A program made the position numbers and the translations under genes. DNA of 64,000 bases from an uncultured Roseburia sp. (GTDB lineage Bacteria; Bacillota; Clostridia; Lachnospirales; Lachnospiraceae), in assembly GCA_947573605.1 (NCBI GenBank), contig CANPGM010000004.1, forward strand, positions 58,634 through 122,633, given 5' to 3'. The notes beneath the pieces are model-generated. The model was not told the origin of the DNA. It worked only from the letters and a program-made list of their open reading frames with translations, and ran no database searches. Positions 2,929-64,000 of this stretch are shown piece by piece (within the stretch, counting starts at the first letter, position 1; each line of letters starts with the position of its first letter).

Positions 2929-4834
2929 GAACGGCACCTCCCACAATTACGCATAAAAATATCAGTAATATCAACGCCCCGATTGCAACTGCCGGGCGAA
3001 ACAGCTTGTCCTCGCCAAACCAGTTTGTCATATACCAGTTCGAAATCTGAAGCTCCTTCGAATCCCCCTGAGAATCCACAAACCGTTTGTTGTCCCCGGT
3101 ATTTGCTCCGCCCATATAAACCATTACCGTTTTGTCCTTTCTGTTTCTCGTAAGCAGATAGTTGACGGACGGCACTACGAAAATCGCGCAAATCATAATA
3201 ACCATAATCGCAATATTTCCTTCCGAAATAACGGGACTTGCGCTTCCGTACATATCGTTCATCAAAGGCTCAATGACATATTTCGACAAAAACGGGAAAC
3301 CAACGCACAAAAGAATCAGAAAAATCGCATGAAAATACATGGAGACATATTCGTTTCGCTGTGTAACGTCTTTTCCTCTGGATTCGTGAATCCCTAAAAT
3401 TTTCGCAAACCATTTTGTCCAGTAAAACATTGTTGTAGCGCTTCCGAAAACGATAAATAATACCATAAGCGCACTTGGCGCATCGACAAACGCCTTTAAC
3501 GCCGCCCATTTGGAAATCAGCATACCAAACGGAGCCAAAAACATTCCGGCAATTCCAACCATTAAAATAAACGCAAGCTTCGGATAGCGAACTGCCAGCC
3601 CCTCCATATCCTCAATATCGCGGCTGCCCGTCGTATTTTCTATCGCGCCGACGCACTGGAACAGCATTGATTTTGAAACCGCATGAAAAATAACCAGAAA
3701 CACAGCCGCCCAGATGGTTTCCTGATAACCGGCTCCCGCGCAGGCTACAATCAGGCCAAGATTCGATATGGTCGAATACGCAAGAACCTTTTTTCCGTCG
3801 CTTTGCGAGATAGCAAGGCAGGAAGCCACCAAAAACGTAAATCCGCCGCAGAGATATACCATCTGTCCGACGTAATTTCCATTCATGGCAATTGCCAGCC
3901 GGATCAGAAGATAAACGCCCGCTTTTACCATCGTCGCACTGTGCAGAAGAGCGGAAGACGGCGTCGGAGCGGCCATCGCGCCCAGCAGCCAGCCGGAAAA
4001 CGGAAACTGCGCCGATTTCGTAAGCGCTGCAAACGCAAGCATTCCGACCGGTATCAAAAGTCCCGCTTCCTTGCCGAAATCAATCACATCATATAAGTTC
4101 ACCGTATGTTCCGCGTAAACCGCATACGTTATTGCCACCGCAATGCCCAATCCGCCAAGCAGGTTCATCCAGAGTGCGCCGAATGAGTTGTTTACCGCTT
4201 CTTCGGTCCGCGTATATCCGATCAGCAAAAACGAACATACGCTTGTAATTTCCCAGAAAAAATAAAGCCATATCAGATTCATGGAAAATACAAGACCAAA
4301 CATCGCTCCGTAAAATACAAATATCATAGAAAGGAAAAAGTTACTGCGGTCCGCAAACTCCTTATGGTGGATATGGTAGCCCCGCATATAACCTACCGCA
4401 TAAATCCCGATTGCAACTCCGATAATACCGATAATCAATATCATAATAAACGTCAGCCAGTCAATCCGGATATGATGCGCATTGACCGCCTCCGGTCCGA
4501 ACAATTCCGTCCAGATCACAAGACAGGTCTGTATCACAGAAAGCAGAGAAATAACTGTCTTCCGATGCTTCACTGAAAGATAGATAATCAAAAACATCAG
4601 AAATACATCCCCTGCCAGTATTGCCTTATCAAAAATTTCCGTAAAAGGCAGATCAAACGTAAGTACTTCACCGCCGCGCGCATACCACAGACCCGCCGTA
4701 AAAACAGCGAGAGCCGCTATGACAAAACCGCATAAGTAAACGGCATAACCCCGTATCCTGTCATGCTTTATGACAGCCGGGAGCAGCGCCATTAGAAACG
4801 GCAGGCATATCAGTACTGTAACCAATTTATCCAT
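2921..4834 (-). CDS. echA: Ech hydrogenase antiporter-like subunit EchA (NuoL-like)
   Basis: 637-residue polytopic protein related to NuoL and Mrp antiporter subunits, the presumed proton or sodium pump of Ech. The Proton_antipo_M region is seen in WLLGAMAAPTPSSALLHSATM near the middle. Lysines and glutamates within helices, such as LTKSAQFPFSGW, fit the ion channel. The ATG at 4834 is preceded by GAGGAGG at 10 nt. The longer ORF start adds 40 unlikely residues. It is the first gene of the operon, with a convincing promoter upstream at 4872-4900. Confidence 0.88.
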   Translation of the reverse strand: MDKLVTVLICLPFLMALLPAVIKHDRIRGYAVYLCGFVIAALAVFTAGLWYARGGEVLTFDLPFTEIFDKAILAGDVFLMFLIIYLSVKHRKTVISLLSVIQTCLVIWTELFGPEAVNAHHIRIDWLTFIMILIIGIIGVAIGIYAVGYMRGYHIHHKEFADRSNFFLSMIFVFYGAMFGLVFSMNLIWLYFFWEITSVCSFLLIGYTRTEEAVNNSFGALWMNLLGGLGIAVAITYAVYAEHTVNLYDVIDFGKEAGLLIPVGMLAFAALTKSAQFPFSGWLLGAMAAPTPSSALLHSATMVKAGVYLLIRLAIAMNGNYVGQMVYLCGGFTFLVASCLAISQSDGKKVLAYSTISNLGLIVACAGAGYQETIWAAVFLVIFHAVSKSMLFQCVGAIENTTGSRDIEDMEGLAVRYPKLAFILMVGIAGMFLAPFGMLISKWAALKAFVDAPSALMVLFIVFGSATTMFYWTKWFAKILGIHESRGKDVTQRNEYVSMYFHAIFLILLCVGFPFLSKYVIEPLMNDMYGSASPVISEGNIAIMVIMICAIFVVPSVNYLLTRNRKDKTVMVYMGGANTGDNKRFVDSQGDSKELQISNWYMTNWFGEDKLFRPAVAIGALILLIFLCVIVGGAVHA

Positions 4835-5530: not shown

Positions 5531-6979
<1,449 letters not shown>

Positions 6980-7115: not shown

Positions 7116-7976
7116 TCAGGAGATAGCCGCCGCGCCGGCTATAATCTCGGTTAATTCCTGAGTAATAGAGCCCTGACGCGCTCTATTGTATTTCAGAGTC
7201 AGATCACTGATCATTTCTTCCGCATTGCTGGTAGCAGAATCCATCGCCTGCATTCTTGCCCCGTTTTCACTGGCAACCGCTTCGACTAATGCGCCGTAAA
7301 AGAGACTGGTAATGTACTTCGGAATAATCGTATCAAGCGCTTCCTCTTCATTCGGCTCATAATTCATCAGCACGTTTGAGCCGGCCGCCTGCTCCATTTC
7401 ATTTTCGTCAAATTCTATCGGAAGCAGCTTCATTAATTTCGGCTCATGACTGACCGTATTTTTAAAATGAGTATACGCGAGATAAATCTCTCCGATTTCT
7501 CCGTTTGTATAGGCGTCAAGTACTGTTTTACAAAGTGCAGCCGCGTTTTCATAGGCCGGGGATTCAATCATACCGGACTCGTCGGCCTTAATGGAATATC
7601 CGCGTCTTGACAGCGCTTCATGTCCCTTGCTGCCGATCGCATAAATTTCCACGTCCTCTTTTAAAAGTCCGCTTGCGGTCACTGTTTTTACCACATTAGA
7701 GTTGTAGCCTCCGGCAAGTCCGCGGTTCGATGTAATCACCACAACAGCTTTCTTATCCGATCCTCCTGCTTTTAAGTACGGATGGTCTACATTACCCGAC
7801 TTCGCCAGCATGGAAGTAACCGTCTGATACATATAATTAAAATATGGATTCGTCTGCTCCGCCCTGTTTTTTGCTTTCTGCAATTTTACGGTGGAAACAA
7901 GCTTCATGGCTTTTGTGATCTGCTGCGTACTCTGTATGCTGCCTTTTCTTCTTTTTATGTCCCTCATCGAGGCCAT
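7116..7976 (-). CDS. atpG: F1Fo ATP synthase subunit gamma
   Basis: 286-residue central-stalk subunit. The N terminus MRDIKRRKGSIQSTQQITKAM and the C terminus YNRARQGSITQELTEI are the family's two conserved coiled-coil ends; the middle contains SNRGLAGGYN. The ATG at 7976 has AAGGAGG upstream. Just 5' of that SD is a GCCGC/GCGGC hairpin (7993-8008), the same arrangement as upstream of several unrelated genes in this window. Confidence 0.95.
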   Translation of the reverse strand: MASMRDIKRRKGSIQSTQQITKAMKLVSTVKLQKAKNRAEQTNPYFNYMYQTVTSMLAKSGNVDHPYLKAGGSDKKAVVVITSNRGLAGGYNSNVVKTVTASGLLKEDVEIYAIGSKGHEALSRRGYSIKADESGMIESPAYENAAALCKTVLDAYTNGEIGEIYLAYTHFKNTVSHEPKLMKLLPIEFDENEMEQAAGSNVLMNYEPNEEEALDTIIPKYITSLFYGALVEAVASENGARMQAMDSATSNAEEMISDLTLKYNRARQGSITQELTEIIAGAAAIS

Positions 7977-62198: not shown

Positions 62199-63449
62199 TT
62201 ACATGCTTGCAAGCAGCGCTGCAATATCCTCCGGCGTCATCATTTTATTCGGATTCGATAAATCCGGTCCCGCCTTCTTTTCTTCTTTCACCGGAAGAGG
62301 CGCTTCTTCCATTATCGGAATTTCCTCCAAAACCGGTTCTTCGTCCGCTGTCTCTATCGGAGTTTCAAGAGAAAACAACTCTCTGGCGCCGGGCAGTTCC
62401 GGGTCTTTCTCTAAATCATTTATATCAAGTCCGATATCATCAAGCGTTCCTGCAATCAATGCCTCAATATCATCCGGCGTCATTGTCTGATTCGTATCCG
62501 GAACATCCGGTTCTATAGCCGGTTCTGTTTCCGATGGTTCGTTTTCCGGAACAATCTCCTCCGACGTATTGTCGTTTAGGACGGAATGAATGAGGTTTTC
62601 TACCGATACTTCATCCGGTATTTCCTCTTCCTTCGCAAAAGATTTCATAGAATCAGGAGCCGCTTCTTCGATCATTTCTGCAGGTACTTCGTCAATCAAA
62701 GAAGACTGCTCTTTTAATACGGCAAGACTTTTTGTCAATCCATCCATTGTATCAACGTTCATTTTTTCAATATGATCCGCGAGCCGCTCAATTTCCTCCT
62801 GAAAACCGGATACCTTTTCCGATAAAGTCAAAAGACTGTTGTTTAAAGAGGCTTCCATATTGTTTAACTCAATAAAAAGTCTGTCCTGCTTTGCAACAAC
62901 TTCATCGTTAAACGATTCGGTAAACGTTTCCTGATACTCCTGATTACTCCTGGCATTTGCTTCAGATTTTTCCTGAAATGCGTTAATTACATTTAAAATC
63001 TCATTATTTAATCTCAATACCGCATTTGTATGATCTTTGCTTTTATTGAGAATCGCTTTCGCCGTTGCTTTCTGCGAAATAATGATTTTATCGGAATCGT
63101 CTTCCTTCTTTTCGTCCGCTTTTTCAACCAGATAAGTTAACTCCTCATATGCTTTTTTCAGCAGTAAATAAGAAGCTTTCTCTGATTTAAAAATATTGTC
63201 ATAACGCTCGTCTTCCGCCGGATTCTGGTGCGCCGACATTTTGATTGCCGTATTTACCGCAACAAATAGCATTACCAAAACCAAATCCGCAAGAAGAATG
63301 ATTACAATAAAATTCTTCGGCTGATTAATCATAAAATACAACCCTGCAATAAACAGCGCTGTCGCCGCCAATACCGAAATGATGAATCTTTTTTGTAAAC
63401 TGCCGCTGTCTTTACCGGTTTTTTGTGTTCTGTTTTCTTCCATCTTCAC
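62199..63449 (-). CDS. Membrane-anchored coiled-coil protein with repeated MTPxDIxALxA motif
   Basis: About 416 residues, no recognised family. Two membrane helices (about residues 21-69 from this start) are followed by a long coiled coil (100-255) and a very acidic C-terminal half. There the motif MTPDDIEALIAG recurs as MTPEDIAALLAS at the extreme C terminus; it resembles the 'SQDEIDALL' peptide of FliM/FliN, which docks on partners. The start is GTG at 63449 with GGGAGG at 8 nt; ATG two codons later is also possible. The function is unknown. Confidence 0.7.
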   Translation of the reverse strand: MKMEENRTQKTGKDSGSLQKRFIISVLAATALFIAGLYFMINQPKNFIVIILLADLVLVMLFVAVNTAIKMSAHQNPAEDERYDNIFKSEKASYLLLKKAYEELTYLVEKADEKKEDDSDKIIISQKATAKAILNKSKDHTNAVLRLNNEILNVINAFQEKSEANARSNQEYQETFTESFNDEVVAKQDRLFIELNNMEASLNNSLLTLSEKVSGFQEEIERLADHIEKMNVDTMDGLTKSLAVLKEQSSLIDEVPAEMIEEAAPDSMKSFAKEEEIPDEVSVENLIHSVLNDNTSEEIVPENEPSETEPAIEPDVPDTNQTMTPDDIEALIAGTLDDIGLDINDLEKDPELPGARELFSLETPIETADEEPVLEEIPIMEEAPLPVKEEKKAGPDLSNPNKMMTPEDIAALLASM

Positions 63450-63514
63450 AATACCTGCCTCCCGATTAATCTTTCGCTTCAAAGCTCTTTTTATTTTATC
63501 ATAAATAGTACTAT

Positions 63515-63561
63515 AAAAAAAGTGCCGAAAACATGAAAAATCATATTTTCAGCACTTTTTT
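63515..63561. terminator. Hairpin terminator next to the tRNA-Arg fragment
   Basis: AAAAAAGTGCCGAAAA pairs with TTTTCAGCACTTTTTT. On the minus strand it directly follows the tRNA 3' end, so it was probably the terminator of the original tRNA-Arg gene. Confidence 0.85.
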
Positions 63562-63563
63562 AA

Positions 63564-63605
63564 CGTCGCTAAGAGGATTTGAACCTCCGGCCTACCGCTT
63601 AGGAG
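63564..63605 (-). repeat. 3' half of tRNA-Arg(CCU): probable attachment site
   Basis: Minus strand reads CTCCTAAGCGG, TAGG, CCGGAGGTTCAAATCCTCT and TAGCGACG, which is a correct anticodon loop, 3' anticodon arm, T arm and 3' acceptor strand. 5' of the anticodon loop the sequence (GGGGCTA) no longer pairs with GCGGT, and no GTCGCTA acceptor strand is found, so the 5' half is missing. This is what remains at one end of an element integrated into a tRNA gene. Confidence 0.75.
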
Positions 63606-63941
63606 TAGCCCCGTTTGCTAGTAGGCAGCTCCCTTTTAGTGTTATCTAATTCCTGTATTTCCTTGCTTGTCACGGATTCAGAATGTTATCTCGTACCTCC
63701 ATGTGACTGCTGATTTTAAGGTGTTTTAAATGTTCCTTTTAGCAGACGATTAGCAAGGGACTTGAATTTAGGGAAATGTTATGTTGTAAAGCCTTTCCCG
63801 ATTGATACCTGCATTTCACAACTAATCCAGTGTAGTTTAAGCTGTTTGCATTTTTTCTAAGGTCGTAAATTGCGACCTCAAAGAGTTTCTCATTCCTCTT
63901 TGCTTTTTCTAAGGTCACAAATTGTGACCTCAAAGAACTTC
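63606..63941. other. End of a putative integrated element
   Basis: No intact gene. It is AT-rich and holds two 20-bp palindromes (63859-63878 and 63911-63930) set in imperfect 52-bp direct repeats. The ORF at 63739-63933 is a translation of these repeats and has only a TTG start without SD. Confidence 0.5.
63859..63930. repeat. Two spaced palindromes in imperfect direct repeats
   Basis: AAGGTCGTAAATTGCGACCT and AAGGTCACAAATTGTGACCT lie 52 bp apart, each inside a common frame TTTTCTAAGGTC...GACCTCAAAGA. Their symmetry suggests binding sites for a dimeric or multimeric protein, such as an excisionase, replication initiator or regulator. Confidence 0.6.
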
Positions 63942-64000
63942 TTAGTTCTCCGTTTCCAGTTCCAACCTTTGCAGGATGTCTTTGATGATGCCTGCATCTT
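63942..64000 (-). CDS. C-terminal end of an unidentified gene of the element, partial
   Basis: Minus-strand frame entering from the right edge reads DAGIIKDILQRLELETEN and stops at TAA. The helical, charged character looks like a real protein end, but only 18 codons are visible and all three frames are open near the edge. Confidence 0.35.
   Translation of the reverse strand, partial: DAGIIKDILQRLELETEN

Follow-up and report, generated by a model that had tools for sequence, protein, structure and literature searches.

The attachment site at the right edge of the window

The DNA analysed here, referred to as the window, is a stretch of 64,000 nucleotides (G000:C4:58634-122633) whose contig, C4, stops at window position 64000. 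Toward this right edge lie a gene for a membrane-anchored coiled-coil protein, a terminator-like hairpin, a partial tRNA-Arg(CCU), an element arm with repeats and palindromes, and the end of an ORF6N/PLD-like gene (Table 1). The partial tRNA comprises 42 bp that read CTCCTAAGCGGTAGGCCGGAGGTTCAAATCCTCTTAGCGACG on the minus strand, running from the anticodon loop to the acceptor end and opening with the seven anticodon-loop bases CTCCTAA. A sequence-only reading of this DNA had described it as a 3' half alone, and ARAGORN indeed detected no complete tRNA at this position. When the 3.08-Mb genome was searched for the 42-bp core with up to 3 mismatches allowed, the only other copy was found within an intact tRNA-Arg(CCU) on contig C30 (L002:1469-1543), 658 bp from the end of that contig, and reversed-pattern controls gave no match. 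The identity between the two copies covers exactly 42 bp and ends on both sides, in agreement with the expectation of the earlier reading that a full tRNA-Arg(CCU) sharing about this length would mark the far end of the element. Together they form a direct repeat of the 3' portion of the tRNA, one copy of which completes an intact tRNA, as is found for tRNA-integrated elements.

Table 1. Features at the right edge of the window, in window coordinates.
Feature	Position	Strand	Basis
Membrane-anchored coiled-coil protein gene; chromosomal flank, directly after tRNA-Arg(CCU) in genus relatives	62199..63482	-	tblastn and synteny in L012, L014, L023, L025-L029; ORF call
Terminator-like hairpin native to the host tRNA-Arg, chromosomal side of attR	63520..63561	-	Flank 86% over 97 bp to L012 and 84% over 83 bp to L014, contiguous with the tRNA there
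attR core, tRNA-Arg(CCU) 3' half from the first anticodon-loop base	63564..63605	-	42-bp exact match to the C30 tRNA; relatives' empty sites have the same 3' half
Element right arm (attP' side)	63606..63875	-	Conservation in other cassettes and in elements with an integrase
Third right-arm YTGCTRA repeat	63707-63713	+	Sequence motif
Two arm-type YTGCTRA repeats (63750-63756 and 63739-63745)	63739..63756	-	Sequence motif count against shuffles
Palindrome AGGTCGTAAATTGCGACCT downstream of the ORF6N gene	63860..63878	.	Sequence; related palindromes also before and within the gene
Second palindrome AGGTCACAAATTGTGACCT	63912..63930	.	Sequence
ORF6N/PLD-like gene, final 18 codons and stop (...DAGIIKDILQRLELETEN*), truncated where the contig ends	63942..64000	-	Same residues end the complete 320-aa L053 protein

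The empty site in relatives and the probably displaced tRNA half

Species of the same genus (L012, L014, L023, L025-L029) carry the site uninterrupted: by tblastn and synteny, a gene that we take to be DUF3881-like, tRNA-Arg(CCU) and the coiled-coil gene follow one another contiguously. In G000 this order is divided between two contigs, with the DUF3881-like gene and the tRNA on C30 and the coiled-coil gene on C4. Spliced at the core, the C30 and C4 flanks align unbroken through the junction with the empty sites of L012 (82% over 194 bp) and L014 (88% over 121 bp). Since an uninterrupted site is present in these species, an element has integrated here and the window contains its attR, as the sequence-only reading had proposed. 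The terminator-like hairpin that follows the half-tRNA is common to the empty sites; the half-tRNA in the window is thus most simply the host's own original 3' half, displaced, and the intact tRNA on C30 most simply a host 5' half joined to a 3' half supplied by the element, both by established tRNA-integration logic.

DNA to the right of 63605 was not found in any of the other 61 same-genus genomes, so that the unit is present in 1 of 62, and is common to elements in other genera, which accords with the view that the sequence beyond the half-tRNA is foreign. The side of the element was also called correctly; the right-arm DNA conserved with other elements begins at 63606. A chimeric assembly join at a conserved tRNA might be suspected from the position near a contig end and from the nature of tRNAs as repeated sequences, but independent genomes (L053 and L103) have the same join of right arm and core, and the window's copy continues into genus-typical chromosomal flank; we consider such an artefact exceedingly improbable.

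In another genome, G023 (G023:C5:73000-115600; L031-L034), 42 kb separate the tRNA-Arg(CCU) from the coiled-coil gene, and a left arm adjoins the tRNA. This is probably another integration or rearrangement at the same tRNA-Arg(CCU) site, and as no second core was found in that interval, it was left out as a complete example.

A cassette of 1.85 kb with a single gene

A search of 84,980 genomes with the C30-side arm pattern matched six loci. The whole unit is carried by L053 (Lachnospiraceae A85_79), which belongs to the same genome as G064 and to another genus, in the order tRNA (6010-6084), left arm of ~190 bp, one ORF, right arm of ~270 bp and second core (7849-7890). From first core to second core it measures 1,849 bp, and it contains a single ORF6N/PLD-like gene and no integrase. 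The G000 sequences match it closely on both sides, at 97.9% over 661 bp on C30 and at 98.0% over 396 bp on C4, after which the second core follows, so that cores and conserved arms are kept at both ends. Both G000 contig ends fall within one ORF6N gene, with codons 1-65 at the end of C30 (L002:2004-2203), where alone they were found, and the last 18 on C4. The middle of the gene (~0.7 kb) is in no G000 contig, and no other contig overlaps the ends.

Most simply, the G000 unit would have the same size as that of L053, with ~0.7 kb unassembled. We infer the absence of an integrase in G000 itself from the L053 unit, as ~0.7 kb is missing from the assembly, and this stretch could hold extra genes or an integrase. 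All eight PF00589 hits in G000 were compared with int52 (L052:2345-3805), which stands for the integrase type of the larger tRNA-Arg elements in this family, and none proved close (best 22% identity), for which reason the G000 copy may now be immobile.

The sequence-only reading had expected a far end within about 100 kb, together with an integrase gene, which would suit a large prophage or ICE that has its attR in the window and its integrase and body in an assembly gap. The contig does stop inside the element, and among the relatives whose arms are similar, some measure 5-23 kb and bear an integrase. However, one contig ends in the N-terminal and the other in the C-terminal part of a single ORF6N gene, and L053, L052 and G433 have this gene uninterrupted; no other G000 contig contains the ORF6N middle or an int52-like gene, and a large element would need a big insert within the ORF6N gene. 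We find this explanation improbable and rejected a large prophage or ICE body at the G000 site, both contig ends being the ends of a single ORF6N gene. Thus, the attachment scar, the crossover, the interior side and the intact far tRNA of the earlier reading stand, whereas its large integrase-bearing element gives way to a homologous unit of 1.85 kb.

Arms, repeats and palindromes

Homologues of the right arm were found in 8 of 397 sampled family genomes, and a second sampling of the family added no further ones. The right arm is 97% identical to G064, 91-92% to G063 and G433, 88% to L103, and 79-80% to G405 and G066. Both arms are enriched in the repeat YTGCTRA: the right arm has 3 (0.21 expected; a fraction of 0.0025 of shuffles reaches 3), and the left arm on C30 has 4 (0.20 expected; 0 of 2000 shuffles reach 4). 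These repeats are consistent with integrase arm sites, and the arms most likely represent binding sites for an integrase of the int52 type. At the right ends in G063, G433, G313, G356 and G126, little is shared with the core beyond its opening CTCCTAAG(C), and the sequences then run into different tRNA 3' halves. The limited sharing places the overlap in the anticodon loop, where the sequence-only reading had put the crossover, and the different 3' halves indicate that the element family tolerates diverged tRNA-Arg genes.

Palindromes of the AGGTCRCAAATTGYGACCT type occur upstream of the ORF6N gene, inside it and twice downstream of it (L053:6460-6500 and 6790-6825, and the two window copies in Table 1). 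The one inside the gene encodes the LKSQIATS motif of ORF6N. Such palindromes are possibly operator sites for the ORF6N protein.

Related elements and tandem arrays

The same arms occur elsewhere with other contents (AbiD; TIR), and tandem arrays are found in G064, G063, G065, G066 and L103. G063 has the ORF6N/PLD gene with two small genes, G066 has it with a broken integrase, and in G405 the ORF6N gene is broken. Tyrosine integrases in G126, G356, L103 and G065 are about 40-48% identical to int52, and the four integrases that were aligned retain the catalytic R, HxxR, H and Y; an integrase, the same ORF6N gene and the right arm are found together in L103 and G066.

Several of these loci show further particulars. 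The second unit of G064 (L062:9849-11600, equal to G064:C33:31849-33600) has an AbiD/Abi_2 gene between the same arms and forms a second cassette in tandem; beside its truncated right arm, the last codons of an ORF6N/PLD gene remain as a scar. G066 (L067:11616-12473) carries a TIR-domain (CAP12-PCTIR) gene in a 5.1-kb unit with the same arms, which also includes a 440-aa unknown neighbour and the broken integrase. L103 contains two copies (5712-5926 and 4377-4535) of a short MITE-like sequence with terminal inverted repeats ATTACTAAGGYGGTTAAAT, one of which interrupts the ORF6N/PLD gene of the integrase-bearing relative. In the IMG/VR contig L112 (343-5845), a prophage-like stretch with an amidase-like gene and a second integrase in two pieces adjoins an ORF6N element, which suggests accretion of the element with a prophage.

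As a tentative and rather unlikely generalization, minimal cassettes without an integrase might form a dispersed system in which single defence genes (ORF6N/PLD-like, AbiD, TIR) are swapped within one common attP chassis of ~460 bp. Such cassettes would accumulate in tandem at tRNA-Arg(CCU), use in trans the integrases of elements whose cargo is unrelated, and pass between genera as units of at most 2 kb.

Transfer between genera and proposed mechanism

PepT, encoded next to the element in the window, shares 54-55% of its amino acids with its counterparts in G064, G063 and G433, whereas at the DNA level the cassette matches G064 at 97-98% identity and G063 at 90-96%. The disparity between 97-98% for the cassette and 54-55% for PepT indicates that the cassette has moved horizontally and recently between genera, though it could have travelled as part of a larger tandem array and not by itself. 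These data also bear on whether the unit is a dead remnant, that is, an old integrated element reduced by internal deletion, vertically inherited and never mobile as a unit. Such a history would account for the lack of an integrase, for the lost right end of the second G064 unit and for the broken ORF6N gene of G405, and an origin by deletion is likely, since relatives with both integrase and ORF6N gene exist. But the unit is 97-98% identical across genera in which PepT is 54% identical, ending at tRNA-Arg(CCU) in both, and the empty sites in genus relatives and its presence in 1 of 62 genus genomes speak against old vertical inheritance. Near-identity between genera together with empty sites argues for recent transfer instead of vertical decay, and we give a dead remnant little credence.

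Taken together, the window probably holds the attR of a small integrase-less cassette, which would be a deletion derivative of an integrase-bearing tRNA-Arg element and would have been moved by an integrase supplied from elsewhere. In the mechanism that we propose, a tyrosine recombinase would cross over in the 7-nt anticodon loop (CTCCTAA) and insert the cassette into tRNA-Arg(CCU). Recombination would join the host 5' half to the element-supplied 3' half, giving the intact tRNA on C30, and would push the host's own 3' half and its terminator to the other end, giving the attR of the window. Between the tRNA halves would lie the left arm with its four YTGCTRA repeats, the gene combining ORF6N DNA-binding and PLD-like parts, and the right arm with its three. 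The cassette would derive by deletion from a larger element, of which some still hold the integrase and the ORF6N gene, and would be mobilised when an int52-type integrase is provided, presumably either in cis by a tandem neighbour or in trans by a helper.

The cargo protein

The complete protein of L053 has 320 aa, contains an ORF6N domain (Pfam, 4.2e-34) and matches the candidate phage-defence family PDC-S05 of PADLOC (E 1.9e-126); in G000 the gene is assembled at its two ends only, and a defence role of the cargo there is presumed from this match. In a modest AlphaFold model (pLDDT 66), the fold of the C-terminal part is similar to those of NucT, Nuc and Zucchini (TMt about 0.45-0.58), and TrmBL2 is also among the structural resemblances of the PLD part. 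The position of the HxK(x)4D motif reads HDRFLILD, with an R for the K that is invariant in 9 sequences. This replacement makes nuclease activity uncertain, and the cargo may possibly be a regulator with an inactive PLD-like domain.

Relation to known mobile elements

In its arrangement, the cassette fits the cis-mobilizable (CIME-like) kind. CIMEs and their accretion model have been defined with examples such as the ICESt1-related CIMEs of Streptococcus thermophilus (PMC5704250). Similarly, the cassette is bounded by attL and attR, lacks integration and transfer genes in the complete L053 unit, occurs in tandem with integrase-bearing relatives that share its att sites (an arrangement seen in G063 and G065), and may have arisen by deletion from relatives such as L103 and G066, which carry an integrase and might themselves be of ICE or IME type. 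Unlike the ICESt1-related CIMEs, it is only 1.85 kb long with one gene, has nearly identical copies in different genera, exchanges cargo between copies and uses a tRNA anticodon loop as its site. The ssrA islands of Dehalococcoides without an integration module lie beside integrase-bearing islands and have been proposed to be cis-mobilizable (PMC3146451). They likewise pair integrase-less with integrase-bearing elements at the same RNA gene, but use a serine recombinase (CcrB-like) and a tmRNA target, carry reductive dehalogenase cargo and lie within one genus.

Scans of a viral collection matched 0 contigs with the left-arm pattern and 1 with the right-arm pattern, which places the cassette outside any recognised phage family in that collection. 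The L053 unit was unmatched in a plasmid collection, and ORF6N matches in phage records were partial only and <60% identical. With the literature search terms tried, we found no description of such cassettes. They indicate that <2 kb of DNA suffices to take one candidate defence gene from genus to genus among gut Lachnospiraceae, by way of attachment arms that belong to larger elements and with no recombinase gene in the unit. These cassettes are without the hallmark genes sought by mobile-element finders, and their arms offer a concrete search handle.

A further comparison is with tRNA-dependent lysogeny, known for example from mycobacteriophage Fionnbharth, whose prevalence outside actinobacteriophages has been described as open (PMC10865867). 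The short common core at a tRNA is shared with these phages, but in G000 the element's 3' half restores the host tRNA, which is not broken and replaced by an element tRNA. In G065 (L064:9060-9300, equal to G065:C26:84060-84300), G080 (L096:3180-3460) and G082 (L098:16840-17060, minus strand), the host tRNA-Arg(CCU) breaks off behind CTCCTAAG, and some tens of bp downstream stands a second tRNA-Arg(CCU) that is complete. A left arm follows the second tRNA in G080 and G082, and an int52-like gene lies near the site in G065, with fragments only in G080. This layout, in which the host tRNA is broken and a whole replacement is carried, matches the anatomy of tRNA-dependent lysogeny, although these Lachnospiraceae elements need not be phages.
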